NCBI GenBank assembly: GCA_029834535.1
Contig: JAQMWT010000109.1
Location: 124,001 to 188,000 of the forward strand
Length of the DNA stretch: 64,000 bases
DNA from: Chrysophaeum taylorii
Lineage: Eukaryota > Sar > Pelagophyceae > Pelagomonadales > Pelagomonadaceae
Direction of reading: 5' to 3'
Both the position numbers and the translations under genes were made by a program. Below the pieces are notes generated by a model. It had not been told where the DNA came from, searched no databases, and saw nothing but the letters and a program-made list of their open reading frames with translations. Shown piece by piece: positions 42,190 to 62,300 of the stretch (position 1 is its first letter; each line of letters opens with the position of its first letter).

Positions 42190-44235
42190 ATGATGGAAGC
42201 CTCGCAGTTCCACTTCGACGAGGAGGTGCTGGCGAACCAGACGTGGCTCGCCGACCCGCAGCTCCTCGGCCAGTCCTCGAGCCCGCTCAACTGGACGCGA
42301 GGCGGCGCAACGCCCGTCAAGGGTAACAACGAGGACGACGCGAGCTTGAGCTCCCTCTTCCACGCGGCGCTCTCCCCCCTCGCCAAGTCGCCAGTTCGGA
42401 GCCTGGGCTCGCGCCGCGCGAGCCTCGAGGAGGAGGCAGCGGCCGAGGCCATGGCGAGCATTCAGCGCACGCCGACGCGCAAGCCGAGCGGACATAGGGA
42501 CGCGTTCCGGCGAGAACCGCCGCGGCGGCTCTCGCCCGCCCGCGAGCCGCCGCCGCGGCTCTCGCCCGCGCGATCCCCCAAGAACCTCACCTTCTTCCAG
42601 CAGGCACTATCGCAGAGTGCCTCGCACTCGGCGAGACTCCGCGGCGCCCCGCCGCCCGAGCGAGCGCCTCCTCCCAGAGATTCGCCGCCGCGGGTAGTGG
42701 TCCCGCCGCGCGAGCGAGCGCCTCCTCCCAGAGATTCGCCGCCGCGGGTAGCGGTCCCGCCGCCACCCCCGGCGGACGAACCCCCTGCGCCCCCGCTCGA
42801 CGACGCCGAGCCGCCGCCGCCGCCGAGAGAGGAACCTCCCGCGCCGCCCAACCTCCTGTCTTTTGACGACGCCGAGCCGCCTCCGGTAGAGGAGCCCGCC
42901 CGACCGCCCGACCTCCCGTCGCTAAACGAGGATGCCGAGCCGCCAGCAGCAGCGGCCGCTGCGCCGAAGAAAACCAAGTGCCCACGCCTTAGCCTGTATC
43001 TCGCGCCCTTCGACCAAGATACGACCGAACGCATGATCAAGGCGGGGTATCCGCTCTACCTCGAGGTGAAGATCCCCGTCTCGCGGAAGAAGAACCGGCT
43101 CGCCTCGCTCTACCGGCGGCTCAACGCGCGCTGGAGCGAGATCACCGACGCCAAGCTCCTTCTCGGCACCAGCGACCTCAAGCCCGGCGTCATGGTCTAC
43201 CTCTGGGACCCAATTCGCAAGCGACCCCACGACGCCGACAGCCCAACAAAGCGCGCGAGCGACAAAGTCGCCCGCCTCGAGGAGGAGCTCCAACAGGCGC
43301 GCCACGAGCTCGCCGAGGCCAAGCAGCGCCGCCAGCAGCAGGAGGACGACCGCCAGGTGGTTACCAAAAGGCAGCCGGCTCCTCGGGTCATCGAGAGACC
43401 TCCCAAAACGCAACGAAGAGCGCAGCGATACGACGACGACGAGCTGCTCTCGACGCGCGACGTCTTCGTCCAACTCGAGCAGCAGAATGCCGGAGGGCCA
43501 CCACGCTGGCCGAGTCGCCAACCCTCCGAACGCCTCGCTCCCGTGCCCGAGGAACTCTCGGTTGAGCCTGCTGCCCTCTCCCGCGCGATGACGCCCGGGC
43601 CAACAGCTGTGCTGGATCTGACGAGCCAACCAGCTCGTCGAGCGCTGCGGCACGACGACGACGCCCCCGCCGCCGTTGCGGAGCCGCCGGCCGCAGAGCA
43701 CCTGCCGCGCCACGACGACCCCACTGCCGCCGTTGCGGAGCCGCCGGCCGCAGAGCACCTGCCGCGCCACGACGCCCCCACTGCCGCCGTTGCGGAGCCG
43801 CGAGCACCTGAGTACCTGCCGCGCCACGACGCCCCCGCCGCCGTTGCGGAGCCGCCAGCACCTGAGCACCTGCCGCGCCACGACGCCCCCACCGCCGCCG
43901 TTGCGGAGCCGCCGGCCACTGAGCACCTTCCGCGCCACGACGCCCCCACCGCCGCCGTTGCGGAGCCGCCAGCACCTGAGCACCTGCCGCGCCACGACGC
44001 CCCCACCGCCGCCGTTGCGGAGCCGCCGGCCACTGAGCACCTTCCGCGCCACGACGCCCCCACCGCCGCCGTTGCGGAGCCGCTGGCCACTGAGCACCTT
44101 CCGCGCCACGACGCCCCCACCGCCGCCGTTGCGGAGCCGCCGGCCCCTTCGCTGGATCAACTCGACCCTGCACTCTTCAACTCCAACCTCAGCAACTTGC
44201 CCTGGCTCGAAGACCCCAGCAATCTGCCGGGGTGA
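42190..44235 (+). CDS. Proline-rich protein with nine 19-residue repeats, unknown
   Basis: 681 residues from MMEASQFHFDEEVLANQTWL. In order: an acidic/aromatic start with TWLADPQLLG, a long Pro/Arg-rich region (PPPRLSPAR, APPPRDSPPRV repeated), a small folded segment (LSLYLAPFDQDTTERMIKAGYPLYLEVKIP ... ARWSEITDAKLLLG), a coiled coil (ARLEEELQQARHELAEAKQ), nine EHLPRHDAPTAAVAEPPA-type repeats, and a C terminus with LPWLEDPSNLPG. The WLxDPxxLxG motif therefore occurs at both ends. Such short acidic motifs could be interaction sites; function unknown. The start is the first ATG after the divergent promoter. Confidence 0.6.
   Translation: MMEASQFHFDEEVLANQTWLADPQLLGQSSSPLNWTRGGATPVKGNNEDDASLSSLFHAALSPLAKSPVRSLGSRRASLEEEAAAEAMASIQRTPTRKPSGHRDAFRREPPRRLSPAREPPPRLSPARSPKNLTFFQQALSQSASHSARLRGAPPPERAPPPRDSPPRVVVPPRERAPPPRDSPPRVAVPPPPPADEPPAPPLDDAEPPPPPREEPPAPPNLLSFDDAEPPPVEEPARPPDLPSLNEDAEPPAAAAAAPKKTKCPRLSLYLAPFDQDTTERMIKAGYPLYLEVKIPVSRKKNRLASLYRRLNARWSEITDAKLLLGTSDLKPGVMVYLWDPIRKRPHDADSPTKRASDKVARLEEELQQARHELAEAKQRRQQQEDDRQVVTKRQPAPRVIERPPKTQRRAQRYDDDELLSTRDVFVQLEQQNAGGPPRWPSRQPSERLAPVPEELSVEPAALSRAMTPGPTAVLDLTSQPARRALRHDDDAPAAVAEPPAAEHLPRHDDPTAAVAEPPAAEHLPRHDAPTAAVAEPRAPEYLPRHDAPAAVAEPPAPEHLPRHDAPTAAVAEPPATEHLPRHDAPTAAVAEPPAPEHLPRHDAPTAAVAEPPATEHLPRHDAPTAAVAEPLATEHLPRHDAPTAAVAEPPAPSLDQLDPALFNSNLSNLPWLEDPSNLPG
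43639..44148. repeat. 57-bp coding minisatellite, nine copies
   Basis: The units encode EHLPRHDAPTAAVAEPPA plus one variable residue (T, P or A). One unit is three bases shorter and the first is degenerate. Late units alternate between ...PPAT and ...PPAP forms, suggesting duplication of two-unit blocks. All length changes are multiples of three. Confidence 0.85.
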
Positions 44236-44759: not shown

Positions 44760-46362
44760 TTAAGCTTCCATTTCTTTCTCGTAATCCTTGGTCTGAAGTT
44801 CGACGTGGTCATTTGTGGCACCCGGAGGTGGCATGGGGACGTCGCAGTGGCCGCCGTGCTTGGAATCATCCATGCCGACATCCTCGACGGATTCATCGAC
44901 GCGGATACCATAGGGATAGACGTACTTACAGACCAGGAAGAGGAGGAAAATGTTCGCGCCGGTCCATCCAATGTCGGCAAAGATGAAGCAGACGGCGGCG
45001 CCTAACGAGCCACCGTCGCCGCCATAAAATATGCCCGCGCAATCATCCTTGCGATCAGAGTAGTAGGCGTTCGCGTAATAGAACTCCGAGGCAAAGAGCG
45101 CGGCCGCGATGACGCCCCAGCACCCACAGGCACCATGAACCGGAAAGGCGTCGACGACGTCGTCAATCTCGAGCTTGACGAGGAGCTTGGAGGCGCACAT
45201 GTAGACCGGGCACGCAACCAGGCCCGTGAAGAAAGCCCCCCAGTTGTTGGAGGTCGAGCATCCCGCCGTAATAGCGACCAAGCCAGCTAGGATGCCGTTA
45301 TTTGCCATCGAGGGATCGATGATGTGTGTGAGAAGATACGAAACCAGGACGCACGAGATGCACGAAGTGGCCGCTGCGATCGTCGTCGTCATGAAAACGT
45401 GAGCCGCAACGCCCCCGTACCCCTGGATCGCGAGGGTCGAGGCGCCGTTGAAGCCGTACCATCCGACCCACAGGATCAGAGTGCCCAGCGACTGGAAGAC
45501 GACGGATTGCTGTTCGAGGTGCTTCGCGTCGGGCCCGAAGCGGCCCTTGCGGGGGCCAACGAAGGTCGATGCGATGACGGCCGAGACGCCGCCCGTCATG
45601 TGAACGACACCCGAACCGGCGAAGTCGATCATGCCGCACCCGCCGAACAAACGCTTCTCGCGCCACGGGCTGAACTTGCCGTCGCTCGACCAGCCCATGT
45701 GAACGACGGCTGGGTAAATGTAGCCGACGAGCAGGCACGAATACGCGACGTAGGCCCCAAAGGTCGCGCGCTCGGCGATGGCCCCCGACACGATGGTCGC
45801 CGTGGTTCCCGCGAAGGCCCACTGGAACATCCACGAAGCCTTGCCGTAGGTCTTGGCCGACGGCGTATTCGTCAACGGACTCGCGTCGTCGCCGCTCCCG
45901 ATCCCCTCGTAGAAGAATCCCGAGCCCCCGTAGAACCCGTTCTCCCCACTCCCCTTGTTCCGCCGCACGAACCCATCGGCCCCGAACGCGAGACCATATC
46001 CGGTAGCCCACCAAAACAGCGCCGCGATCACGGCATCGAAGATGTTCTTGATTAAGATGTTCTTCGTGTTCTTCACCGCGACCTGCCCCACCTCGAGCAT
46101 CGCGAAACCCGCCTGCATGAAGAACACCAGCACCGTCCCGAACCTGGGACGCCGTATCAACGAATTAATGAAAAGAACACACGCACAGCAGCCAGAACGT
46201 GTCGGCGTCGACAGCATCCAACTTGGAGTCCACTGTATCCGCCATGCCGGCGACGGTCGACTCGAGCGCCGCGATGCGCGCCTCGAGGTCGTCGTCGGCG
46301 GCCGAACACATCGGGACCAGAAAGGCCGCCGCGCCCAAGATGGCGAGCATTTCTACCCGCAT
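44760..46362 (-). CDS. Ammonium transporter (AMT/Mep/Rh)
   Basis: 519 residues from two exons (46362-46187 and 46143-44760). The 43-nt intron (46144-46186, GTGCGT...TCCCAG) joins DTFWLL to FGTVLVFFMQAGFAMLEVG, the canonical first AMT helix. Further motifs: FWWATGYGLAFG, WMFQWAFAGTTATIVSGAIAER, DFAGSGVVHMTGGVSA (pore region), LGTLILWVGWYGFNGAST, and HGACGCWGVIAAALF with the second pore His. There is an N-terminal signal peptide (MLAILGAAAFLVPMCSA) followed by a short coiled coil before helix 1. About 11 membrane helices; plasma-membrane ammonium uptake is expected. The cytosolic tail is short and acidic. Confidence 0.93.
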
Positions 46363-47286: not shown

Positions 47287-47384
47287 CCCACACCAAAAAA
47301 ATGTGACTGATAACCGTTTGGAGGAAAAAGTGATACTAAATGGTGAAACTTAAAATAATTAAATAGATACTCTTTGACACATAC

Positions 47385-48318
47385 AAGTGCAGGCCAGTAA
47401 GTTCACCTAGTCCCAATCTCTAACCCCAGTAAGTTCACCTGGTCCCGTTACGTTCACCTGGTCAGTAAGTTCACCTAGTCCCAATCTCTAACCCCAGTAA
47501 GTTCGACACCCACTCTCCTTTGAGCTCGTCGCTCTCACCCCCGCCAATCTAAGCTGCTTTGGTCCGCACACGCCGCTAAGCTTTGAGTCTCTAAAAACCC
47601 CAGTAAGTTCACTTGGTCCCAGTAAGTTCACCTGGTCACTAAGTTCACCTAGCCCCAATCTCAAACCCCAGTAAGTTCACCAGGTCCCAGTAAGTTCACC
47701 TACAGTGCGCGTGTAGACGCCGGGAGGGGGATTATCGGTATTGCGCAGCACGTGTGGGGTAGGGTGGAGTCGTCGACTCAGAAGAGCATATCCTCGAGGT
47801 TGCCGATCGACAGAGAGCCACGTAGAGCTGGACGTGACAGAAGACGGGCTTGGGCGAGAGGACGCCGACCTCGCGGGGCGTCTGGCCCTGGCTCTTGTTG
47901 ATCGTTTGGCGTCGGCGGGCCTTAAGGGATACAGGTTGGAGGACCCTCGGTGACACGACACGATCGATCATGTATCTGGTACCGTTGCAGTGGCCGTGCG
48001 ACGGGTCGAGGTTGCGAAGACTATAAGCTCGCGATCAAAGTCAGCATGCCGTTGGTTGTCAGGGAGTTGAAAACTCGACTGTTAAGAGCGAGGCGTCGGC
48101 TTCCGACCCAACCTAGTCGGCCGAAAAGAACTCCGACGCCTCGTCTCCGGGGAGAAAAAGGCCGCGGTCATGCGCGCGTTGTCAGCATCGACAACATCGT
48201 TTCGACGGGGCGTGAGAATGGCGCGCTGAAAGAGCCGCCGCGGGTCGTGGAAATAGTCTGCGAAGTCGCCGTAGAGGGCTTGGAGGATCAATGTCTGGCT
48301 CGCAGGCCTACATAATCC
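47385..48318 (-). mobile_element. Helitron/Pif1-helicase-derived unit, inverted single copy
   Basis: A sixth copy of the 16.86-22.07 kb unit in the opposite orientation. Reading the plus strand it begins ACAAGTGCAGGCCAGTAAGTTCACC (the reverse of the unit tail), passes the minisatellite, then helicase pieces (INKSQGQTPREVGVLSPKPVF at about 47732-47971; ALYGDFADYF...AILTPRRNDVVD at 48291-48082), and ends near CCTTACCCTGAATCGG. It differs from all array units by scattered changes, so it is not a very recent copy of any of them. Confidence 0.7.
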
Positions 48319-48337: not shown

Positions 48338-48391
48338 AAGACCCCGGCTGGGTCCCGCGTACTTATCTCCGCCTGTCAGGCACATCCCTCC
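48338..48391. repeat. Dispersed composite repeat, copy 3 (cut by the gypsy LTR)
   Basis: GACCCCGGCTGGGTCCCGCG and onward to GTCAGGCACATCC matches the left part of the 5330-5428 copy. It stops at the LTR boundary at 48392, as if the retroelement had inserted into it. Confidence 0.55.
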
Positions 48392-48730
48392 TGTGGCGCA
48401 AGGAGAATTTTAGGGGCTACCTGGCGCGCCTTCGAATCCTGGCTCGCCGCTCGCGTCCGTGCCCTTGGTGGGGTCACTGGACGAGGATGGCCGTTCTCCC
48501 GCCACACGACCACAAACAACTTCCGTGCCTGGTCCTCACAACTTGAGGATCGGCTGTTGCTTTATGATCAAGGATATATCGAAAAACAGAAATCAGGGTG
48601 ACGCATGTCACGGAAAAAGGAAGATGATGTCATAGAGAACACTGACATCATCAGAACGGAGTAGGGTGCCGCTGATAAGGGGGGGGGCTAGAAGAGGGGT
48701 AAGCCTTAGGAGGCGGGAGTTGCCGCCACA
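48392..48730 (-). repeat. Gypsy 3' LTR (left copy)
   Basis: 339 bp, bounded by TGTGGCG and CGCCACA inverted termini. It contains GTGACGCATGTCAC (a perfect palindrome, 48598-48611) and TGATGTCA (48625-48632). Slightly longer than the right copy through small indels. Confidence 0.85.
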
Positions 48731-51700
48731 GGACTCCCCTGGTAAGAATTCGAGCTGCCCCAGCGAGGTGCTAGCGCGAGGAGCGCGGCTTCGCCTTACG
48801 AGCATCTTGTGAACGAATCTTCTGGTAAACGCGGGTGATGACCGGTTCAGGAACTCGGCCACTGCGTAAAGTAAACTTGGGTATCAACACATCAATCTCG
48901 TGCGGAGCGAAATCCGTGACACAAGGAGTTGTGTTGGAGGAAATTCGGGACTTGTCGGTGAAACTTCGACCTTCAACGTCCTTGAACTCGGGCTTGAGCT
49001 TGCGGTGCGAAAGGTGAGAGGTCGGCTTGAAATAAGCGACATCATCGTTCGGACCCAAATCGGAATAGAAATGTAGAGCAACACGATCATTTTGGTAATC
49101 TTAAGGCTCGTAAACTTCAGCAACATAAATCTTCTTGCGCCAATCAGAGCGCTTCCGGTCAGGAATCCGGAAAACAACAAACTTACCGTGCTGATAATCA
49201 TCACGGAAGGTTTCTTCGGGTTTGCGGATGGCTTGATCAACGATCGGAGGTACCATCACCGGCGTGATCTGACTAACATGAACACGTCGTTCATCGGGCG
49301 GAGAGTCGAGAGACTCAATCCTATAGGTGACCGGCGAAAGGCGCTCCTTGATAATAAACGGCCCTCGCCATTCCGGTCGAAGTTTATTCTGAAGGAAAGG
49401 AATGTAGAGCAAAACGTGCGATCCTTCCTTGTATTCAACATCAACATGATCAGCATTGCAAGCCAATCGTTGTTTCTTCAAAGCTTTATCACGAGCCTCG
49501 CGGACGATCTTCGTATAATACTTCAATCGTTCACGAGTTTCGGCGACTGCATCAGAGCGAGTCTTCGGCAATAATCGTGTATCAAGGTCCATGAGCGTGT
49601 AGTCAGTCGGTAGCCTCGGCTGACGGTTCAGGCGCAGCATAAAGGGAGAAATCTGCGTGCCTGGAATAAACTTGCGGTTGTAGCAAAACGCAATGTAATG
49701 AGCAAAGTCAGGCCAATCCGTGATGTTCCGGCCCTGAAGGCAAGCACGTAGGAAGGCCTTGATAAATCGGTTGACACGCTCGGCCGGGTTCGACTGGGCA
49801 TGATAAGGAATCGTAGTTTAGTATCGTGTGTTAAAGAGATGGCAAAACTCGCGCATCAACTTGTTCACGAACTCTTTACCGTTGTCGGTACGAATCATCT
49901 GGGGCAAGTAGCCCTTGAGGAGGATGTTAATGACAAAAGACTCGAGGACAGACTCAGCAGTCTTATCGTTCAAAACATCCAGAATCAAGAAATGCGAGAA
50001 CGGATCAAAAAATACTAGAAGATACGTCTCGGGACCAGCGCTGGGCAAGGGTCCAAATAAATCCATGCAAAGAACAGCACCATCACCATCGTAGACGGAA
50101 TGCTGCAAGAGCCCAGCTCGTTTCGGCTCAGGCGTACGAGCTTTCTTGCAAACTAAACATTCAGAAATGAGACTCCAACTTCGTTCGACATGTGAGGCCA
50201 CCAAAATCGCTCTTGGATAGCCTGGACAGTACTGTGACGTCCCATATGACCACCGTTAACCGGAGTGTCATGGTAGAGTCGAATAATGCGCTTGCGCAAC
50301 GTAGCAGGTGCAACAATCATCGGGTGCAAATCAGCAGAAATGCGGTAAAGAACGTCTTTAACGACTTCGAATCGTTCGTTAGCTCGGGAACGTCGCGGCG
50401 TCTGACCTTGGGCCATTCGGTAGCGAATATCCTCGCAAATAGCATCAGATTCTTGCTCACGTGCGATCTCAGCGAGCGTCATATTATCGGGTATCTTATC
50501 GATATAATCTTTGTAAGCGGCTGCGTCCTTGAAGATCTGTGGCTCATCGCGCGCACGGTTCTTCCGACGTTGTCTCGTAGCGTGAGACGTAGCCAATTTC
50601 ATCGGATCCTTTTCAGGATTTTCTTCCTCATCTTCCAGCAGTTCGGTCGTAATAAACGACATTATGAAGTGGCAGCCGGAGGCGGGAATTCCTCGGTCAT
50701 CAACAGGTCGGGGAAGCTCTTGGAACACTACATATGCGTGGTTCAAAGGTTCTCCAAACTCGTCAGTCTCGATGACATGATCTATCGGGTTGCGGGAGAG
50801 ACAGTCAGGGATACTCATTCCCGGTGACTTTCCCGGCTTGTAACCAAATTCAGGGTCAAAATTGGCGAGGCGCATCGCCCAACGAGCAAGCTGCCCAGAC
50901 GAGTGCGTCGCCTTACGTAAAAACGTCAAATTTCGGTGATCGGTCTCCAAAACAGTACGGTGCCCTTCGATGTAGGCTCGAAAGTGCTCTAGAGAAAGTA
51001 TAACTGCCAGCAGCTCTAGTCGACGGGGCTCATAATTGCGCATCTCTCGGCTCCAATATTCAATCACTCGTTCTTCTCGAGTCACTCTTCCGGCATCGTC
51101 CTTGACTTCGACAATCTGGAAGAGATATGCTCCAAGTCCATCCTTGGAAGCATCGGATCGGATCTGAAAAGGCAGATCATAATCGGGGTGGTAGACTCCA
51201 CGGGAATCAACCAAAGCTTCAATAATGGTATCCCAAGCTTTCTGACACTCGGGCGTCCACTCAAACTTTACACCTTCGAGGCATAATCGTCTCAGCGGTT
51301 CCACAATCTTCGAGTAGCCCTTCACATATTGCCGGCAATAATTACTCATGCCGATGAAAGAGCGTATCTGGGTCTTCGGGGATGTATTCGGTAAAGTACC
51401 TGGAATCGGCATCTTCTGCAGTGCTTCCAGCGTCTTCGGATTCGGCTTCAAGCCTTCTGGGGTAGAAATGTGTCCCAGAAATTCTATATCATCCTTGAGA
51501 AGGTGGAACTTCGCGGTTCGACCGCTGTACCCTCTCTGTGCCAAATGACACATCACTTCGATCAAAACTTGTAAATGTCGATGAAGATCGTCGGATCCCA
51601 TCATAGTATCGTCAACAAACGCAACCAAGTCTTGATACATCCATTTCGAAAGGTCGCTCGCCATTTGCTTGCAGAAAAGAGCTCCGGTCGTCTTCACACC

Positions 51701-52799
51701 TAGAGGTAATCGCAAGAAACTATGAGCGCCAAGTGGGCTAACCATCGTGACAGCGTCCTGCGCTGCCGGATCCAGAGGAAGGTTGTGGTATCCCCATCTA
51801 ATATCAATGCATGTCCGCCATCGTCTCATGGCGAGAAAAGCTAAAGCATCATCTTGTCGAATGTTCGGCCAACTGTCATTGACCAATTGATCGTTGAGCT
51901 GACGTAAGTCAACTGCAGCACGGAACGCGTTTGACGTTCCAATCTCAGCTCCTTTCTTCGGAAGCATCAACACAGGAAAGCCCCAAGGTGAGTTGGCCGG
52001 ACGAATGACTCCATCCCGGCACCACTCGCTGATCTGCTTGCGGAGACAATCGAGCTTCGCAGGCGTCAATCGGTAGGGCGTCATCTTTATCGGTCGCGGA
52101 TTCGCGTCTTTGAATCGTAGAGACACAGGAGGCGAGTCCACAGGTCTCATAATCGGGTCGAAAAAGGCCCAAGAATATTGCACACAGTGACGGAGCATCA
52201 GTTTCGCCTCGTCATCTAAGTGCGGATTGTCAGGAATTCCCAGCTCCTGAACAACCTTGTCAACTTCTTCCTTCGTAGGAACTTGAACTTTCATAGCTTC
52301 ATTATCCTTGACATGCTCGGGAGTTTGCGGCAGCGGTGCCCCCTCAGCATCGCGCGGCGCATCTTTCCATGGCACATCGAACTTTTTCTCGTATTTTAGT
52401 CTCACTTCCGGGTGGCTTTTGTTGATCCTCTCGCCTTTGACACGAACAATCGGCTCGCTCTTAATCTTCGGTTCCCGATCTCGCTCAGGATCTGGCGGAA
52501 CGTCTAAATTTGGTTGTCGGGGGGGGGGCAGCAGAAGAAGCATGAGACGTCCCCGGCTCATCTGTTGCAGGCGGAATCAACGGTACCTCTGGAGGTTTCC
52601 ATTTGGTGCGATCTTGGAGATCATCAGTCGACACCCATCTTACGACACGTGTGCGCGTGTTTAACAGCGGAACTTGTACGTGACGAAGGGTGGTTTCATC
52701 AATTCGCAAATAATAATCAAACGGTCGGTCTGCAGGACTCAACGCTGACGGCAAAGCTTCGCCGATCAGGTGAAAATCCTTGGTCGCAGAGTTGTGCAG

Positions 52800-53640
52800 A
52801 TCGAGTACTAATAAGGTCATCGTGTCTGGTGGCACGACGGACGCCGAGTGTTTCAACGAGGTCGTCCTGGAGAAGCCGGCCCAATCAAAATCAGGGGGCA
52901 TCGTCAGCAACTCCGAAGTCATTTTCAGATTCAGAGATCTGTAATCGGAACGGTGCGGTCCTCCGCGAAGCGGGACTCGCGTAACGGTGTAAGCTGCGTC
53001 TGTCGCGGCTCGTGATGATCCTAAATTGTTCATCTGAAGTAAATGTCGTTCGTCGGCGTAGCCAAGTGCTGTGGCGAACTCTTGCTGCATATTCTTGCAT
53101 GTCTTTGGAACTGCGCGCAAATGGGGCGGATGGCTGGAAACCAACAATCGCACGCGGCAGCTCATCAAACTGGGAGTTTTGTCGTAAAAATTGACGACGT
53201 ACACGTAAGGGTGCAAGCGCGCAACGTTAGAAATAATCGAAGCCTCCTGCTCTATCAACCACATGAAGAAACCAGCCATCTTGCATAATTTCATCGTCCA
53301 GTGGGTAGCGGTGACTCCTTTCCCAACATCTCTGGAGGTCAAGTTGCACAGAGCGGAGTGTACGCAGGGTGGCGACGCGATACACATCGACGACGACCAT
53401 CCCGCGTAGGGTAAATAAGATTCGATCAACCGTAAGGTTGTAACATAGCGACCACACAGTGTGTGCTGCACCACAGGAATGTTCGGAAAATTCTTATGGT
53501 GGATCTGGTTGGCGGTGTCCGACGCATCGAGTGCTAGCACGACACGAAACGACGCCCCAAACATTTCGTTGGCTCGTTGGAGACCTAAAGTACTGCCTCC
53601 GGCTCCACTGAACAGCATCACCACCTTGCGATAAGTGATT
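52800..53640 (-). other. C5-cytosine DNA methyltransferase domain within the gypsy element
   Basis: Motifs in the usual order: I (VVMLFSGAGGSTLGLQRA), II (LALDASDTANQIHHKNFPN), IV with the catalytic Cys (ASPPCVHSAL), VIII (SLMSCRVRLLVSSHP), IX-like (KMTSELLTMPPDFDWAG) and X (SASVVPPDTMTLLVLDL). The domain lies in the same open frame as gag and the protease-like region, just before reverse transcriptase. Known families: such domains in retrotransposons have been described in a few algae and dinoflagellates. Whether it is active cannot be told from sequence alone. Confidence 0.8.
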
Positions 53641-56600
53641 GGAAGCCATTGAACCTTTTCGTATCGGCGGCGGATCTCCGCTTCGGTGATCTCGCGGCAT
53701 TTCTTTTCATCTTCTTCTGACCTTCGAGCGAAATCGTCGCTGCCTTCAGGTCGTTTGAGGGTGGACTTGTCAGCCATAGCGGTCGTAGCGTCCTTCTGCA
53801 CCGTGCTCAGCAGCATCGGCGGGGGAGATTCGTCGCATCGCGTCAAGTGACTAGCGACAGAAACGGTGAAAGAAAGGTTCCCCTTGTCGTATCCTTCTTC
53901 ACATTCTTTCGTAAGTTCGTTGATCGTAGAGACGTTCAACTCGTCTTCGTACCTAACGATACCGCCAATCGCAAGGACTTCGCCTTGAGTGACGACCGTC
54001 GGTACTTCTTCCGTGGCAGTAACCGCCACCCGAGCAGCGGGCCGGTCGTGCTCTTCGCAAGAAGAACACATTCCTTCGACAACTCCCAACTGCTCGTTCT
54101 CAGCAAACGTAGCGACGAAAACCTGTCCCATTTCCATAGGCTTCGACAAAATAACCGGTAGATTGTAAGTTCGACCGGGCTCGATTTGAAACGAGCGCGC
54201 AGCGTAAGCAACTACTTCCTGCGCGGCTTCTCCCGGAGCTGGGGAGAATTTGGTCGTAGCATGTCCCCGCGTAGCCAAGACTACCGTACGTTCCGGCGGC
54301 GGGCTTCGGAGATCTTTAATCGTGCTCAAACGAGCGTAAATTCGAGTCTTGATCAGGTCGAGACTCTTCCGAAAGGCATCGTGTTGATGATTGTAAATCG
54401 GTACGGTTATCGGATCTCGATCGTAAATAGATCGAAAGGTCACGATGGGTGCATCGACTCGTTCATCCTCAACTTTAATCTTCTTGCGCCCGTAGACGAC
54501 TTGGGTTCGATAAAAACAGATCCGATCGTGTGGATAGTCCACGATGGCTCCTAAAACTCGTATATCGCGCCCTCCCAACAGGAACAGATAGTTCGTATCG
54601 GCTACAATAGCGACAATGGGGGCAGCGAAGTCGTCGGCGAGGGCGACCCGAATGGCGATCCAACGATAGATCGTCGTCGTATTCAACCCTGATCCGTACA
54701 GCTTGCGCTTAATCGGAAGTTCGCCTTCATCGAAAATCAACTGATCTTTGGCCAACTTTGTGACCATTTCTCGGCAAATATAAGAAACATCTGCCATTCC
54801 ATCGACACCGATGGTCGTCGAGAATTTCGGTCCGTCACGATTCCTGTAGATGTGACAGGCTATAAACGTAAGAGTACCCGTGTCTAAACAACTGAGGGTA
54901 ACCAAATCATCTTCGATCGTCTTGCCGTCTCGCGGCGTCAACGAAGTGTGAGCACATCGGGCTCTGACTCGCTCATCTCCGGGGTTGGGCATCGATACCG
55001 CGGCTTGAGCTTTCGTATCATCTGTTGTTGGCGTCATCGACATAACGCTCGCGTCAGCCTCTTTATCTGGCAGCTTCCGCTCTTCCTCCAAGACAATCTC
55101 GGAGGGAATCAGTGCTGGTAGGGGATCCTGGTTTTCGTAGATCTTGGAAGCAAAGGACCCCTCCCATAAATCTTTCATTTCGTCGTTCCAGAGTGCATCT
55201 GTGAATTCATTCGTCGCCGGTTGATCCTCACCATCATCGGCGATCGGTTCCGTGTCGGCTGCGGCTTCGAGTCCGTAGCTGCGCGGTTGTTCTGGTGGCT
55301 TCTTTAGCAAGAAATTCTGAGTTCTCGCCCACCAATCCTGCAGGTTCCACGTCGGCTCGTCTTCGTCCCACTTGAGAACGCTGCTAATCTTCTTCTTAAA
55401 TCTATCCTTTTCTTCCGGCGGCGTATCCGTGGCTCGATCCGTAGTAACCGAAACCGTTTCGGGGGGGTCCGCAGGTAAAGATGGCGTCGTCCCCGACGTC
55501 AACTCTATCGTAAGATCGTCGTCTGCATTACTCGCGCTGGTCATCGTCTCGTCAGTCCAATGAGCGCACAAGCTATCACTGCAGAAATCCATGTCTGGCT
55601 CACAGCCATTTCGGTCGCCAACGGTCGTCTCTGGAGAGTCCAAAGATAAGGCGATGGCATCGAGGGCTTCCTCGTCAAAAATAAACGGTGGGTCGTCCGT
55701 GGACGACTCGTCAAATAACGTTATCGCGGACACTGGTTCACAAGCTGTAGCTTCTTCATCTTCCAAATCTGAATCGCCTTCCCAGTATCGTGGAGCTTCG
55801 AGTTCCTCGCTCAAATCTTCGAGCTCATCGCTCGACATCTGCTCATAAATCTGTGCCAAAGACCGACGATTGGTCAGCACGTCGTTGGGTGGCTCGTCCA
55901 TCGGTGGGCGAGCAAGATCTTCAAATGCGGCCGCGGCAAGGGCGTCGGCTGCGTCGTCGGTGCGGGTGTCCGTGTTCGGGTACACCATCACGCCTAATGT
56001 TAACTGTTGACCGCAATGGGTCGTAAACGCGAACGTTGCAGACGAATGTCCCGAGTCTTCCCGGTAACGACCATCGTCCGAATTTCGATCGCGAGATCTT
56101 CGTCGCCGGCGGCGGCGTGAATGTCTGCTAGAGCTCCTGCTATCTTTCCGTCGGCGCTGGCGCGAGCTGCTACGGCTCTTGTCGCGGTGTCGGGGGCTTC
56201 GGCTATCTCGACGGCCCGGTCGTGTCGAAGACGATCGGCCGTGTCCATCTGTTAAGTGCTTCACGGACCCCATGACCGTGGTCAGCTGCGTGCCCATATC
56301 ATTGAGTCTGCTCTGAATATCTTGAGCAGTGCTCGAACCGAGGGTGGCATTAGAACTGCCGTCGTCACGCGAATGATTATCTTTCCTTTGTCGGCTCTCC
56401 CATCGTCCTCGCGAAGTGGGCTTTCTGCCGTATTCGATGTATTTGCACATCGCTACATAATAGTCGTCGGGCTCACGGTTACAAATGACTCGGTTCCCGT
56501 GTTCATCCTTGTCGTGGGTCGCTAAGAAAAACCCACAATCCTTGCATGTCCTCTCGAACCACTTTTTCGGATTCTCTTCGAGGCGTAATGCTTCATATTT

Positions 56601-58520
56601 CGTCGTTTTATCTTTCGTTCCCGAGGCGAGAGCCCGTCCTCCGCGTCCAGACGGTGGCTTCTGCGGCTTCCCGCTCGATGGGTTCATTGAGTTTCGGCTG
56701 TTCTTCTCCGCCATGGCTGTTGCGAAGTCGTTCTCGAGCCGTGTAATCAACGACAACGTAGGCGTAAACGTCTTATACGTCGTCGGGTGTCCGCTGCGCA
56801 TCGTTCGCACGCGGGATTTCAATTCGCTGGACTCCAGTCCGCATATCAAGTAAGATGTGATCTCCACATCGTTGAGATCTCGGTTGGCCACGGAACAGTA
56901 TGCCATGGCCTCTTTCTGAAATTTAGTGCAATACGCATGCACGTGACGTTCTCCAGAACGTTTCGGAACGGTCGCCTGGGTCGTGCATTGTAACTTTCGT
57001 AATGATTCCTCTGCCGTCACCGGCAGCGGACAACTCTCTCGGAAATATTTCAAAATCTTGAGGCAATACTTCTCGTTCAATCGTCGTATCCGTCGTACCA
57101 CGGAACCGTACTCCTCATCGTCGATATCCCGACGTAAATAGAAAGACGCTGGGTGATCGAGGTCTTTACGCAGGTCTTCATACTTCTTTAAGTGTTCTCG
57201 AAAAATCGGTGCGACTGTGTCGCGCAGGGTCGCGGGAAGCAGATATCGGAGTTTCTCCAAGCTGAAATGGTCTTCGGCAAACGTACTCATCACCGCGCCC
57301 GCATCTAAATCGAACTGGTCCTGATCGCGTCCATCGAGAGCCAGTTTAAAAGTTTCGGTTTTTAATCCAGAGGTTGATCGCCGCTCCTTGTTGCGATCGT
57401 GTTTAGCTAACGCGCTGGCGAATCGATCCGTAAAACCCATCAAGAACTCTTGGGTGTCGATCCTTCCGTCGCCACGCGTCTCCTCCTTTTCTTCTTCATC
57501 ATCGTCTTCATAGCGCGGCTTCCTAGCTTTCGCGCGTGATCGTGTAGTTGGCGGCTCTTCCTCAGCTCGGGACTCCGGGCTGCTCGCTCGCCTTGATCGA
57601 CTCGGCGTACGCAACTCGTCTCTTTCACGTGTCAACGAGCTTACTTGATCTTGGAAGGCGTCTGCTCGAGCGTTGGCCCTACGCAGTTGCTCTTTTAATT
57701 CTTCTTTCTCCTTCCGTTGTAGCCGTTCTTTTCGTTCGTTCTCTTCCCCTATTTGTTTTAAAAGTCGTTCTTGCGCGCGATCACTCTCTTCGCGCAATGC
57801 CCGCAAGTGAGCCTCGTAGAACTCATTCATTTTCGTTGCATCCGGGGGTTCTGCACGCGTTGACGGAGCTGTCGATCGTCCTCCCGTCGGTCTCTCCGTG
57901 GGCTTGCCGTCGTTGTAGTCTAGCTCTTCTTCCTCGTCGTCAACTTCTGTGTCGTGCTCTTCTTCATCGTCGTCATTATCATCGTCGTCATTCCGCTCGT
58001 TCGTCTCATCCTGACGGCTTGGCGGTTCCTCATATCGTAGCTGCTCTACGGCAGCATCATCGTCTTCCATATCGGCTCTGGCTCGTTCTAGTCGGCCGAG
58101 ATCAGAGCGGGTCAAAAATGGTTGAATCGTCGTCGTTCTCGAGCTCCTTCGACTCTGGAACTTCTAATCGTTCACGACACGCGTAATATCGTCGTTGCGT
58201 GCGTCTTCCACCGACAAATCTATCAGTCCGGTGGGCGGCAGAACTCGTCTCTGCCCGGCAATCAATGCCTTATCCGTGAGTTGCGATCTCACTCCGCTCG
58301 CCTGCGGCAGCGGTACCCGGGTTGCGCGTCGGCTAGCACCGAATCGCGCGTCGTCACTTCCAACGACTAACGTATCCGGCCGGGGAACTTCCCCACAACA
58401 GTGGTCCTTCTGGAATTCCTTGTCGGCGCGCTTGATCAGGGCGCGCACGGCTTGTCCGGACCGTGTAGAGAATGCAAGATGCACTAGTTCGCTGCGACCG
58501 ATATAGTCGCTCGAATCTCG

Positions 58521-58535
58521 TATTCCTCCACCACC
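58521..58535 (-). other. Candidate primer-binding site of the gypsy element
   Basis: Directly inside the 5' LTR, reading on the minus strand, is GGTGGTGGAGGAATA. The TGGTGGAG part would pair with a tRNA ending CUCCACCA. Which tRNA is unknown. Confidence 0.35.
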
Positions 58536-58851
58536 TGTGGCGTAAGGAGAATTTTAGGGGCTACCTGGCGTGCCTTCGAATCCTGGCTCGCCGCTCGCGT
58601 CCGTGCCCTTGGTGGAGTCACTGGACGAGGATGGCCGTTCTCCCGCCACACGACCACAAACAACTTCCGTGCCTGGTCCTCACAACTTGAGGACCGGCTG
58701 TTGCTTATGATCAAGGAGAAAAACAGAAATCAGGGTGACGCATGTCACGGAAAAGGAAGATGATGTCATAGAGAACACTGAGTAGGGTGCCCCTGATAAG
58801 GGGGGGCGATAGAAGAGGGGTAAGCCTTAGGAGGCGGGAGTTGCCGCCACA
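58536..58851 (-). repeat. Gypsy 5' LTR (right copy)
   Basis: 316 bp, same termini and the same palindrome (GTGACGCATGTCAC, 58735-58748) as the left LTR. The five bases outside the two LTRs do not match, so no target-site duplication is seen. Confidence 0.85.
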
Positions 58852-59307
58852 AGACTGCTTAGGACGTCTTCCGGTTTTTCTCGCGGTTAACCGCGTCGTG
58901 GCTCGCCCCTTCGTGGAGAGCGACGGCGGACCGCCGCGCGGCTCGGGATGACAAGACAAACCGTCCGGCGCTCGGCGAGGCGGGAGATCGTGCAAGAAAA
59001 CGAAAGAGGCGCAAGTTCCTTTGAAACAAGGCGCGACAAACGTATAGAAGAAGCGCACGACGGCGACGAGGACGCGATGCGCGCGCTCGAGGACGAACGC
59101 GAGAGTGATCGTCTGCGCCACGCCGTATGCCGCAAGACTCGCAGGGAAGCTAAACGAGCTCGTCGTAGTCACCAGCAGCGCTCCTCGCCCCCCCCCCCTC
59201 TAACTTTTTTTTTTTTCAACCAAAGCCCTGCCGCGCCGGCCCTGTATAGTTACGTTGCTGTGAGGGTTAGTTTAATGTCATTGCGGACATAAAGAGGAGG
59301 GTAAGGT
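58852..59307. other. Island of host-like sequence between two retroelements
   Basis: GC-rich text unlike its neighbours. A plus-strand frame from 58948 (MTRQTVRRSARREIVQENER ... RESDRLRHAVCRKTRREAKR) is strongly charged and could be part of a broken or split host gene, cut on the left by the gypsy LTR. It is also followed by a C-run and T-run near 59187-59217. No domain recognised. Confidence 0.3.
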
Positions 59308-62300
59308 TTAAGTGTCTTGCTGAACGATGGGTTGCTGTAAACCAAGCAGAGTGCGAGACGTTGAAAAGAGGGGAGCACCAAGGGGCTTTGTGAAACCACC
59401 GGCAACATTATGTGTACCAGAAATATGGTGCAACCGGATGCGTTTGAGCTGACCGTAGTCTCTTCTACGAAACCAGCGCGTGCTGATGGCTTTAGCTTTG
59501 GTAGCACTATCGGGGTTGTTTGACAGATGAATAGCAGACGCAGAATCTCCAAGGATAGGGCTATTGCGGATGAACGACATGTCCGACGGCAGTGGGTTGT
59601 CGTGTGCATCATAGTCCAGCAGCAGATCTTTTCCTGGAGGTTGACTAAGATAATATCGAGGATTTATCGCAAAGGCCATCTCCGTCATTAGCTTACGTAA
59701 CCAAACCACATCATCAGCGCAAGTATTGAGAGCAATAAGCTCACTCTCATGTGTGGAAGTAGCCGTTAAGGGCTGTAGTTTTGACTTCCACATAACAAGG
59801 GAACCATATAAATAGATGGCATATCCTGTGGTACTTTTGCGGTCATGTTCGTATGATGGCGCATTGTCAGCATCTACAAATGCAACAAGAGGATCAAAAT
59901 TACCAGAATCCACCTGCTCTGCGGTATAGTCTAACACGGTGGCCATATCTGAGCGGCTGCCAATAATAGACCGTAGATGATCCATTATAGCAGGTGACTT
60001 AAAATGATACCATAGGCGAAGATTGCGATTCCCAGGTTTGCGAAGATAACGAAAGGTACCGGCCGATAGCTGGACGTGCAAGAAAGATGGATTATGCCTC
60101 CCTCGTGAACATCTGCTGAGGCTTTGAGGAAGATCGGGCCGGCGAGCTACTTGAACAAAAGTCAATTTACCAAGGAGGGTCGAGAAAGTATTATGAATGT
60201 ACTTGTCCGTCTCAGATGACGGTTCTCCAGTTTTATAAGTGGCTGAGGGCGACATCGGAGTCAAAGAAGTTTTTAACTTCATTAACGTAGAGTGCTCCTC
60301 AAAAAATAGCGTCGATCTTTGCTTGACAATCCAGTGAGATGGAACCATCAGAAGTTCTCGTAATACGCATACCCAAGAGGGTGTGTACTTCCTCAAAAGC
60401 TTCAACTGAATACTGTTTTTTCATGGCGCTTTGAAACTCATGACGGAGTGCTTCTGAAGTGCAAATGACGACAACATCGTCTACAAATAAAGCACACAAG
60501 CAAAAAGTAGCATCCTCTCGAACCTTGGCGTAAATACACGTATCAGTGCGAAAGCGATGATATCCAAGGGAGTCGAAGAAATTATTGATTGTTTGGTTCC
60601 AAAGAGCGGGGCTCTGCCTTAATCCATATAGTGACTTCGGTAGCTTAGGAAGGCGACGTCCCTAGCATTTAGCATCATCGGGATCCATTAAGTAAATGCC
60701 TTGCGGAAGCTTGACGTGCACATGAGAATCAATGGGGGCTTGGACAAAGGCGTTAGGCACGTCCATATGATAGACGGGAAGCCGGAGGTGCGCCGCTATG
60801 GCTAATACGCAACGAATACCTGTAAGCTGCGCCATTGGGCTGAACGTGTTGAAGAAATCGGTGCCAAGAGAAGCTAGAAACCCCCTCAGCGCCAATCGCG
60901 CCTTGTGCTTAATGTGCTCGCCGGCCGCGTTGGTCTTGATACGCAGAACGAGTCGAGTATTGATGGGCTTTGAATTAGCCATCGGCAGCGATAACTTGAA
61001 GCAGCCGAACTTGACGATATCGAAGATCTCCTTGGAAATCGCGGAGATGTAGGCCTTGCGATCAGCATATGAGAGACCTTTTAGCCAGGTCAGCTTATAC
61101 TCATCGATCTTGATGTCCTTGGCCTCAATCTTGTACTCATCAGGGCCAACTGTGCTAGGATATTGATCTTGAGTCAAATAGGGGATGGCATAAGAATCGG
61201 CATCAGAATGAGCGGGAGCAAGTTCGGGAGTTTCGACTAGTTGAACAACGAGTAGCGGATCAGCCTGTAGATAAGACTCAATATAGTGAGCTTGCACGGT
61301 GATGTAGTCCTCGATGTCAGAGAGGTGTGCGTCAGAATCACCATAGGAGTCATCATTATGTCCCATAATAGCGTGGGGCGTCAGAAGTGCATAAGCATAT
61401 TGAGCGGTAGGCACTTGGAATGCCTGCGCATGCTCGGAGATTAGGTGAACAAGAGCACGAGGTAGATGGAGATCCGTGAGGCTAGAAGTGTCAAGAAAGT
61501 GAACAGGAAGGGCAGACGGTGGACGTATATGGCTGCTCTGGTCCACATCTGAATATGCACGTAAGCGGGAGGAAAGAAGGTAGTGAGCGTGATGATGAAG
61601 ACATGTGGTCAAGTCCCCCTCAGGAGGCATAGCCGTCCAGTGGATGCCATTAGCAGCGTGAAGGGAGTGGAGGGTGGGGTCCAAGAAGGTGATGTAGCGT
61701 TTGGACAAATCATATTTAAAGTCGGCCAAGGCGCCACCTGCTTGCTTGTAATCGCCTATAGTGGGCGAAGCAAGGCGAGCTTGTACATCTTGGAGATTTG
61801 TTTTACGTCGAGGTTGAGGTTTATTAGGACCTTGGGTGGGACGTAGAGCATCTTGTGAGAAAAGTTCACGAATGTTTGCATTATAGGCAATGCATCTTGT
61901 GGGAGGTCAGATGTCGTAGATGTATCGACTGGGACAGCAGAAGCGGGAGCCGTGGCCGAAGGAGCTGGAGCTGGTAAAGGAGTGGAGGTAGTCCCCCTCT
62001 CGTGTTCAGTTTCAGTGGACAGACCAATCCCCCTCTGCAGCGCATCTAGGGAGAAGATTATACGACTAAACAGCATGAATTACAGCCCACGGATAGTGTG
62101 GAGCAGGGTCAGTTATAGGGCGACCCTTGTATGACACATTCAGCAGGTTCCCAAGTCTAGTGGACGCAGCAGTTGCTATATGACCAACAGCAGCTTCTAC
62201 CTCTGGATTAAAGACATGTAGGTAAGGCGGGAAAGTAGACATATTGATACCATGTTCAACACGATAGGGTGTTGTGACATACCAGGACAAATAGGGTTTA

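Follow-up and report, generated by a model that had tools for sequence, protein, structure and literature searches.

Layout of the gypsy element

The window, a 64,000-nucleotide stretch of the Chrysophaeum taylorii genome (assembly GCA_029834535.1, contig JAQMWT010000109.1, positions 124,001 to 188,000), contains a Ty3/gypsy LTR retrotransposon on its minus strand. RVT_1, RNase H, and then integrase follow one another, with LTRs on both sides, the order that defines Ty3/gypsy. Just upstream of the RT-RNase H-integrase region, and in frame with gag-like and protease-like sequence, lies a divergent domain of the methyltransferase type. This arrangement, and the position 52800-53640 for the domain, had been proposed in an earlier note on the window and agreed with the open reading frames, the Pfam matches, and the comparison of the LTRs. 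The features are as follows.

48387..58856, minus strand: Ty3/gypsy LTR retrotransposon, 10.47 kb (LTR pair plus RT, RNase H, and integrase domains in gypsy order)
58531..58856, minus strand: 5′ LTR (comparison with the other LTR; ends approximate)
48387..48735, minus strand: 3′ LTR (comparison with the other LTR; ends approximate)
52485..58163, minus strand: 1892-aa open frame with gag-like, protease-like, and DNMT-type regions (ORF reading)
54561..54809, minus strand: retropepsin-like stretch, VDGMADVSY ... LFLLGGRDIRVLGAIVDY (motif reading by eye; no profile match)
52764..53696, minus strand: predicted divergent C5-cytosine methyltransferase domain, frame residues 1490-1800 (profiles, alignments, model)
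50153..52576, minus strand: RT (RVT_1, 1.4e-11), RNase H (4.1e-23), and integrase zinc domain (5.3e-12) (Pfam)
49101..49817, minus strand: integrase C-terminal domain (PF22938, 8.4e-7) (Pfam)

Because a Pfam scan of the 1892-aa frame gave neither a gag nor a protease match, the gag-like and protease-like names rest on layout and motifs. The window copy is broken into three reading pieces, with the RT in a neighboring frame and the integrase C terminus in a third piece. Other copies have the domain and RT in one open frame, which in two of them is 3063 and 3067 aa long. Aligned over 326 bases, the LTRs of the window copy show 9 substitutions, plus 23 gap columns. The short purine run AGGGGAG directly precedes the 3′ LTR and a stretch starting TGG follows the 5′ LTR; by eye, we recognized no target-site duplication around the element.

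Elsewhere in the window, an open frame on the minus strand (44760-46352) resembles an ammonium transporter by eye, a 57-base GC-rich tandem repeat of 8.7 copies lies inside an open frame (43655-44145), and short repeats built on CCAGTAAGTTCACCTAGTCC occur near the gypsy 3′ LTR (47354-47678). A minus-strand Ty1/copia remnant with RVT_2 (59308-61906) adjoins the gypsy element.

Identity and motifs of the methyltransferase domain

Profile matches and motif order indicate that the domain is, in all likelihood, of the C5-methyltransferase type. The earlier note had assigned it to this family, and profile comparisons bore this out. PF00145 matched with E 2.4e-5 and 24.4 bits against a curated cut-off of 22, covering only residues 1513-1568 (motifs I-II); all four sister domains scanned also exceeded the cut-off. 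Thirteen PADLOC families scored at E <= 1, the best at 1.2e-8: four named "DNA cytosine methylase," seven "Type II methyltransferase," DrmMII, and PbeC. The PHROGs "DNA methyltransferase" profile scored 1.6e-6, and NCBIfam dcm, at 0.021, fell far under its cut-off. In a profile-profile comparison, 89 viral C5-methyltransferases (two DNA patterns located the loci, whose 109 candidate frames were thinned at 75% identity) gave a match of 97.1% (E 5.5e-11) to the alignment of the gypsy family, with the confident stretch spanning columns 23-118 (motifs I-IV). Control comparisons with the viral profile (the reversed profile, five of five column-shuffled profiles, and an RT profile) reached at most 0.4%. 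An hmmsearch gave a weak second stretch containing motifs IX and X.

Since the confident sequence matches cover mainly motifs I-IV, a Rossmann methyltransferase of a kind other than C5 has to be considered. We judge this highly improbable: no other methyltransferase family in Pfam scored at E <= 1, and PPC and motifs IX-X are in register.

Searches of the PDB gave nothing significant. With the single window sequence, the top chain was GGA1 at 0.083, and DNMT2 scored 0.22; with the gypsy family profile, DNMT2 was the best methyltransferase, at a non-significant 0.13, and no DNMT3 chain appeared at E <= 10. As DNMT2 is a tRNA enzyme, its place among these weak matches fits a reading in which the element encodes an RNA m5C methyltransferase that would act on genomic RNA or primer tRNA, stabilizing the RNA or hiding it from surveillance. 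We consider this unlikely: the bacterial models with the strongest scores describe DNA cytosine and type II methylases, and the profile of the host DNMT2 matched the domain only loosely and over motifs I-IV (50%, E 1.6e-4, one comparison).

The gypsy domain contains motifs I, II, IV, VIII, IX, and X in order on the minus strand, within the 1892-aa frame; all of these but motif IX had been named in the earlier note. We assigned the names I-X by the conventions of the DNMT family.

53595..53624, minus strand: motif I, SAM binding, VVMLFSGAGG (motif reading, profile)
53517..53534, minus strand: motif II (motif reading)
53352..53378, minus strand: motif IV with PPC and the nucleophile Cys, ASPPCVHSA (motif reading, copies)
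53232..53252, minus strand: putative motif VI, EQEASII, Glu at Cys+38 (spacing and a low-confidence alignment)
53142..53162, minus strand: motif VIII, SCRVRLL, RxR (motif reading, copies)
52887..52907, minus strand: motif IX (weak second hmmsearch stretch, alignment register, model block pLDDT 84-93)
52833..52856, minus strand: motif X (weak second hmmsearch stretch, alignment register, model block pLDDT 84-93)

All 48 gypsy copies examined (40/40 plus 8/8 lower-ranked copies) retain the nucleophile Cys and the two arginines of motif VIII. Glu at the motif VI spacing is present in 47 of 48 (40/40 and 7/8), with Asp in the remaining one. Several features depart from the canonical enzyme. Motif VI would be EQE, not ENV; motif VIII keeps the arginines of QxRxR and lacks the Gln; motif X has LAS (SAS in the window copy) where GN is usual; and the Glu-to-Arg stretch is 32 residues long versus a viral mode of 44.

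The Cys+38 spacing favors EQE as motif VI, a motif absent from the list in the earlier note, but not decisively. Of the 89 viral DNMTs, 55 have a Cys-to-Glu spacing of 37 and 11 a spacing of 38, a comparison limited to canonical enzymes as the viral set was pre-selected for PPC and ENV or EVV. In one of the four settings used, a forced-extension alignment paired EQE with ENV and RVR with motif VIII, at low confidence, and the MAFFT alignment A3 sets the ENV column elsewhere than EQE. Because of the low-confidence alignment, the canonical-only spacing control, and the differing MAFFT placement, this motif stays putative. We also considered SYV/SNV at Cys+45 as a form of ENV that has lost its Glu, and rejected it, since only 1 of the 89 viral enzymes has that spacing.

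AlphaFold2, run on alignment A3 (the window domain with 88 viral DNMTs), returned a model with pLDDT 70.6 and pTM 0.72; folding of the window domain without an alignment gave pLDDT 31.5. Mean block pLDDT in the AlphaFold2 model was 90-96 at residues 21-80 and 84-93 at residues 251-300, falling to 48-53 at residues 111-140 and 31-64 at residues 171-250. With this model, Foldseek returned 88 PDB chains at E <= 0.001 (best 1.0e-7; TM-scores by query 0.25-0.48), and the 50 of these that were listed are all C5-cytosine methyltransferases, DNMT2, or relatives by entry title. As the model was built on a DNMT alignment, its likeness to DNMTs is partly circular and serves as support rather than proof. 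One predicted helix runs across residues 132-161, where the Glu of EQE is not at a strand end, and this helix does not look like the canonical strand before motif VI.

These departures would suit a DNMT fold with little or no catalytic activity, retained in Pol to bind nucleic acid or as a structural element, perhaps in packaging or in the targeting of integration. EQE at motif VI, the loss of GN at motif X, the shortened VI-VIII stretch, and the lack of a canonical motif VI in the model all point in this direction, but the near-complete retention of the Cys, both arginines, and the Glu across copies argues against it, and we regard a dead or weak fold as rather unlikely.

The earlier note had also suggested that the position of the domain may mark a separate capture event. 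A tblastn search of the window domain against phages gave three records (E 0.2-0.7), and when one of these phage proteins was itself used to scan viruses, three loci came up; the gypsy family profile found no encoded relative in viral contigs and prokaryote genomes. Separate capture is plausible, as the domain has no specific similarity to the copia domain described below, but the search for a donor in those two sets came up empty.

A domain inherited with the RT and under purifying selection

The domain is a standing part of the gypsy family, is inherited with the RT, and is under purifying selection. Searching the genome by DNA, we found that all 40 scored places (of 435 candidates) were at least 96% identical; by protein, all 127 scored places (of 1022 candidates) matched at 78-100% identity. 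Both counts include the window copy, both are lower bounds, and broken copies are among them. Twenty of the 127 protein-matched places are at 78-81% identity.

The domain is therefore not a one-off insertion in the window copy, an outcome the earlier note had allowed for. Of the 118 RT places, 60 were preceded on their own strand by a listed domain and 58 were not. When 12 of these 58 were checked (two end at a contig end), 11 held a whole or broken domain, which ruled out for those 11 the idea that such copies truly lack it. The other (L225) holds no domain sequence and looks like an internal deletion. Distances between copies for the domain and RT were correlated (Mantel r 0.97 for 39 copies and 0.48 for the 29 main copies, p 0.001 each).

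We estimated selection by the Nei-Gojobori method, in which pairs are non-independent. Among the main copies, the domain had a dN/dS of 0.172 over 435 pairs from 30 copies, and the RT core one of 0.148 over 406 pairs from 29 copies; the 30 copies were the best-scoring of the 127 by protein, so their dN is biased down. Eight lower-ranked copies (90-93% identity) gave 0.270 for the domain (28 pairs), and 0.225 against the 30 main copies. Within an eight-copy subfamily near 79% identity, values were 0.112 for the domain and 0.202 for RT (56 ordered pairs); against two copies at about 85%, they were 0.249 and 0.172. Between the main copies and the subfamily, dS was near saturation and dN was 0.111 for the domain versus 0.042 for RT, indicating that the domain changes faster than the RT over that span. 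Stops were present in the domain of 2 of 40 copies and the RT of 2 of 39, and in 3 of 8 domains among the lower-ranked copies.

These values bear on whether the domain is a neutral passenger, captured recently, whose decay is yet to come. Many copies are young: the LTRs of the window copy are 2.8% apart and the median divergence of 30 gypsy copies is 4.2%. However, the dN/dS values of the main and lower-ranked copies, together with the low dN against the subfamily at near-saturated synonymous sites, argue against a passenger, and the selection tests would mislead only if the copies stemmed from a few masters converted by one another. We consider a passenger extremely unlikely, and the domain very probably has a selected function.

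Constraint is uneven along the domain. In 30-codon blocks among the main copies, pN/pS was lowest, 0.03-0.05, at frame residues 1610-1669 and reached 0.83 at residues 1760-1800, the motif X end. Thus, the catalytic middle is tightly held and the motif X end is relaxed. Relaxation around motif X within the main copies would fit a dead or weak fold, but constraint is strongest around the catalytic stretch, which speaks against one.

A second DNMT-bearing family, host DNMT genes, and possible functions

A PF00145 search of the genome, in which 123 of 474 candidates were scored and intron-bearing genes match exon by exon, gave 57 matches, none of them at the gypsy window domain. We examined 20 of the 57: one DNMT2 (L001), one DNMT5-like gene (L002), and 18 members of one copia-type family. 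L001 matched PDB 1g55 at 3.9e-39. L002 matched PDB chain 7r76, titled "DNA repair protein Rad8," at 3e-143; we take this chain to be Cryptococcus Dnmt5. With L227, L002 makes up a 2086-aa single frame (G000:C621:16467-22725) in the order DNMT, a non-significant RING-type match, and SNF2 (8.8e-14). Excerpts of PMC11185503 and PMC12344493 give a DNMT5 layout that agrees with L002, with SNF2 downstream of the DNMT.

A DNMT family in copia elements of the same genome, also under purifying selection, is new here. All 18 loci (L003-L008 and L051-L062) belong to one family, with domains 63-94% identical to that of the C120 locus; the copia label comes from C120, which was read at length, and extends to the other 17 loci by domain identity. 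C120 (G000:C120:30800-43500; L049, L004, and L050) has, in order, a gag-like 718-aa frame, a DNMT frame, and a copia-type RT (RVT_2, 1.2e-40). LTR-like repeats flank it, and a further insertion lies at its end; no integrase profile matched in the one piece scanned. The domain has LPC where PPC is usual and mostly ENV (ENA in L007), and its dN/dS was 0.153 (121 unsaturated of 153 pairs; 18 copies, four with stops). A protein search of the genome with the copia domain (107 of 608 candidates scored) gave 116 matches, some being pieces of one copy; tblastn found no copia DNMT domain in the 64-kb window at E <= 1.

Against the alignment of the copia family, the viral C5-methyltransferase profile scored 96.5% (E 8.2e-10), with controls (the reversed profile, five column-shuffled profiles, and an RT profile) at or below 0.8%. 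Neither the copia profile nor the host DNMT2 found an encoded relative in viral contigs. Profiles of the gypsy and copia domains, both thin, had no specific similarity to each other, and the two domains are apparently unrelated. This suggests, but does not prove, that they were captured separately.

DNMT-bearing retrotransposons have precedent, and the gypsy family described here is a further variant. The work that the earlier note cited exists: de Mendoza et al. (2018; PMC5890265) described DNMTs under purifying selection in LINE and DIRS elements of Symbiodinium and in a gypsy element of Klebsormidium. Like the window element, KnitGypsy-Dnmt3 of Klebsormidium nitens carries a cytosine DNMT inside the gypsy Pol polyprotein, in several copies and under purifying selection (Ka/Ks < 0.2; PMC5890265). 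The KnitGypsy domain falls in Dnmt3 and its element has, by the figure legend, DIRS-like repeats, whereas the window element has plain LTRs; moreover, at least 127 places hold the domain here and a second DNMT family occurs in copia elements of the same genome. SymbioDIRS-Dnmt3 and SymbioLINE-Dnmt are likewise high-copy DNMT-bearing retroelements (PMC5890265), but on DIRS and LINE backbones instead of the LTR gypsy and copia backbones found here. Symbiodinium copia elements are without DNMTs (PMC5890265), whereas a copia family carries one here. An excerpt of PMC12344493, citing de Mendoza et al., places DNMT3 in LTR Copia and DIRS elements, which differs from PMC5890265 itself, where the charophyte element is a Gypsy. 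Excerpts of two further papers describe an orchid Ty3/gypsy element with an AlkB-type m6A RNA demethylase, likewise a captured methyl-mark enzyme, which, unlike the window domain, takes m6A off RNA and is encoded by an extra ORF (PMC9289625), and Ectocarpus Sola1 DNA transposons with another kind of methyltransferase (PMC12477816). Among titles and abstract openings, in a search that covered subscription papers and bioRxiv thinly, we found no report of a single genome whose gypsy and copia elements both carry DNMTs.

The earlier note envisaged an element that methylates its own copies. For CpG, this is so far unsupported. The CpG observed/expected ratio was 1.30 in the gypsy element versus 1.34 in window positions 1-44000; means were 1.29 for 30 gypsy loci, 1.17 for 10 subfamily or related loci, and 1.03 for 18 copia loci, and the DNMT-free copia remnant of the window gave 0.91. 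Rare transitions among 30 gypsy copies numbered 69 at 503 CpG sites (0.137 per site), compared to 0.141 at CHH, 0.169 at CHG, and 0.184 at A/T sites. With neither CpG depletion nor an excess of CpG transitions, there is no deamination mark of CpG methylation. SymbioLINE is CpG-depleted (PMC5890265), unlike the gypsy family here. Coding constraint and efficient repair could cover such a mark, and the CpG data leave room for methylation in other contexts or of RNA. An enzyme that methylates RNA would leave no CpG mutation signature, as observed, and RNA methylation was proposed for SymbioLINE by de Mendoza et al. (PMC5890265). As for DNA, SymbioDIRS domains methylate CG in yeast; KnitGypsy-Dnmt3 produced no DNA methylation there, a result that the authors called inconclusive (PMC5890265).

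We tentatively favor an explanation in which the gypsy-borne DNMT acts on the element's own nucleic acid and the host DNMT5 copies the mark; as a whole, we place it somewhat short of an even chance. The coding order of the family is gag-like, protease-like, C5-methyltransferase, RT, RNase H, and integrase, and the enzyme would be made with Pol and stay with the particle. Its targets would be cytosines in nucleic acid of the element itself, with new cDNA, before integration, as the most likely substrate; that methylating cDNA is the selected function is possible. The element would be the setter of the mark and the host DNMT5-type enzyme its copier. According to excerpts of PMC9246332, and similarly of PMC11185503, Cryptococcus DNMT5 performs maintenance and has no de novo activity, which would allow the host enzyme to propagate a mark that the element had set. 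The likely benefit would be a disguise of element DNA as host DNA, or tolerance of new insertions because they are kept quiet. Among the 123 of 474 candidates scored in the PF00145 search, the maintenance-type DNMT5 was the only DNA-methylating gene of the host that we found. A wider proposal is doubtful: that the separately captured gypsy and copia enzymes, both kept under selection, supply the de novo methylation of this organism, with the host enzyme restricted to copying it.

DNMT-bearing retrotransposons are known from two lineages in PMC5890265. C. taylorii offers a 70.8-Mb genome in which young copies of two DNMT-bearing LTR families, apparently unrelated to each other, are numerous and a host DNMT5-type gene is present. 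Such a genome could serve to distinguish between self-silencing, self-disguise, and RNA methylation. If confirmed, the two families would mean that such captures are possible twice in one host, in different superfamilies.
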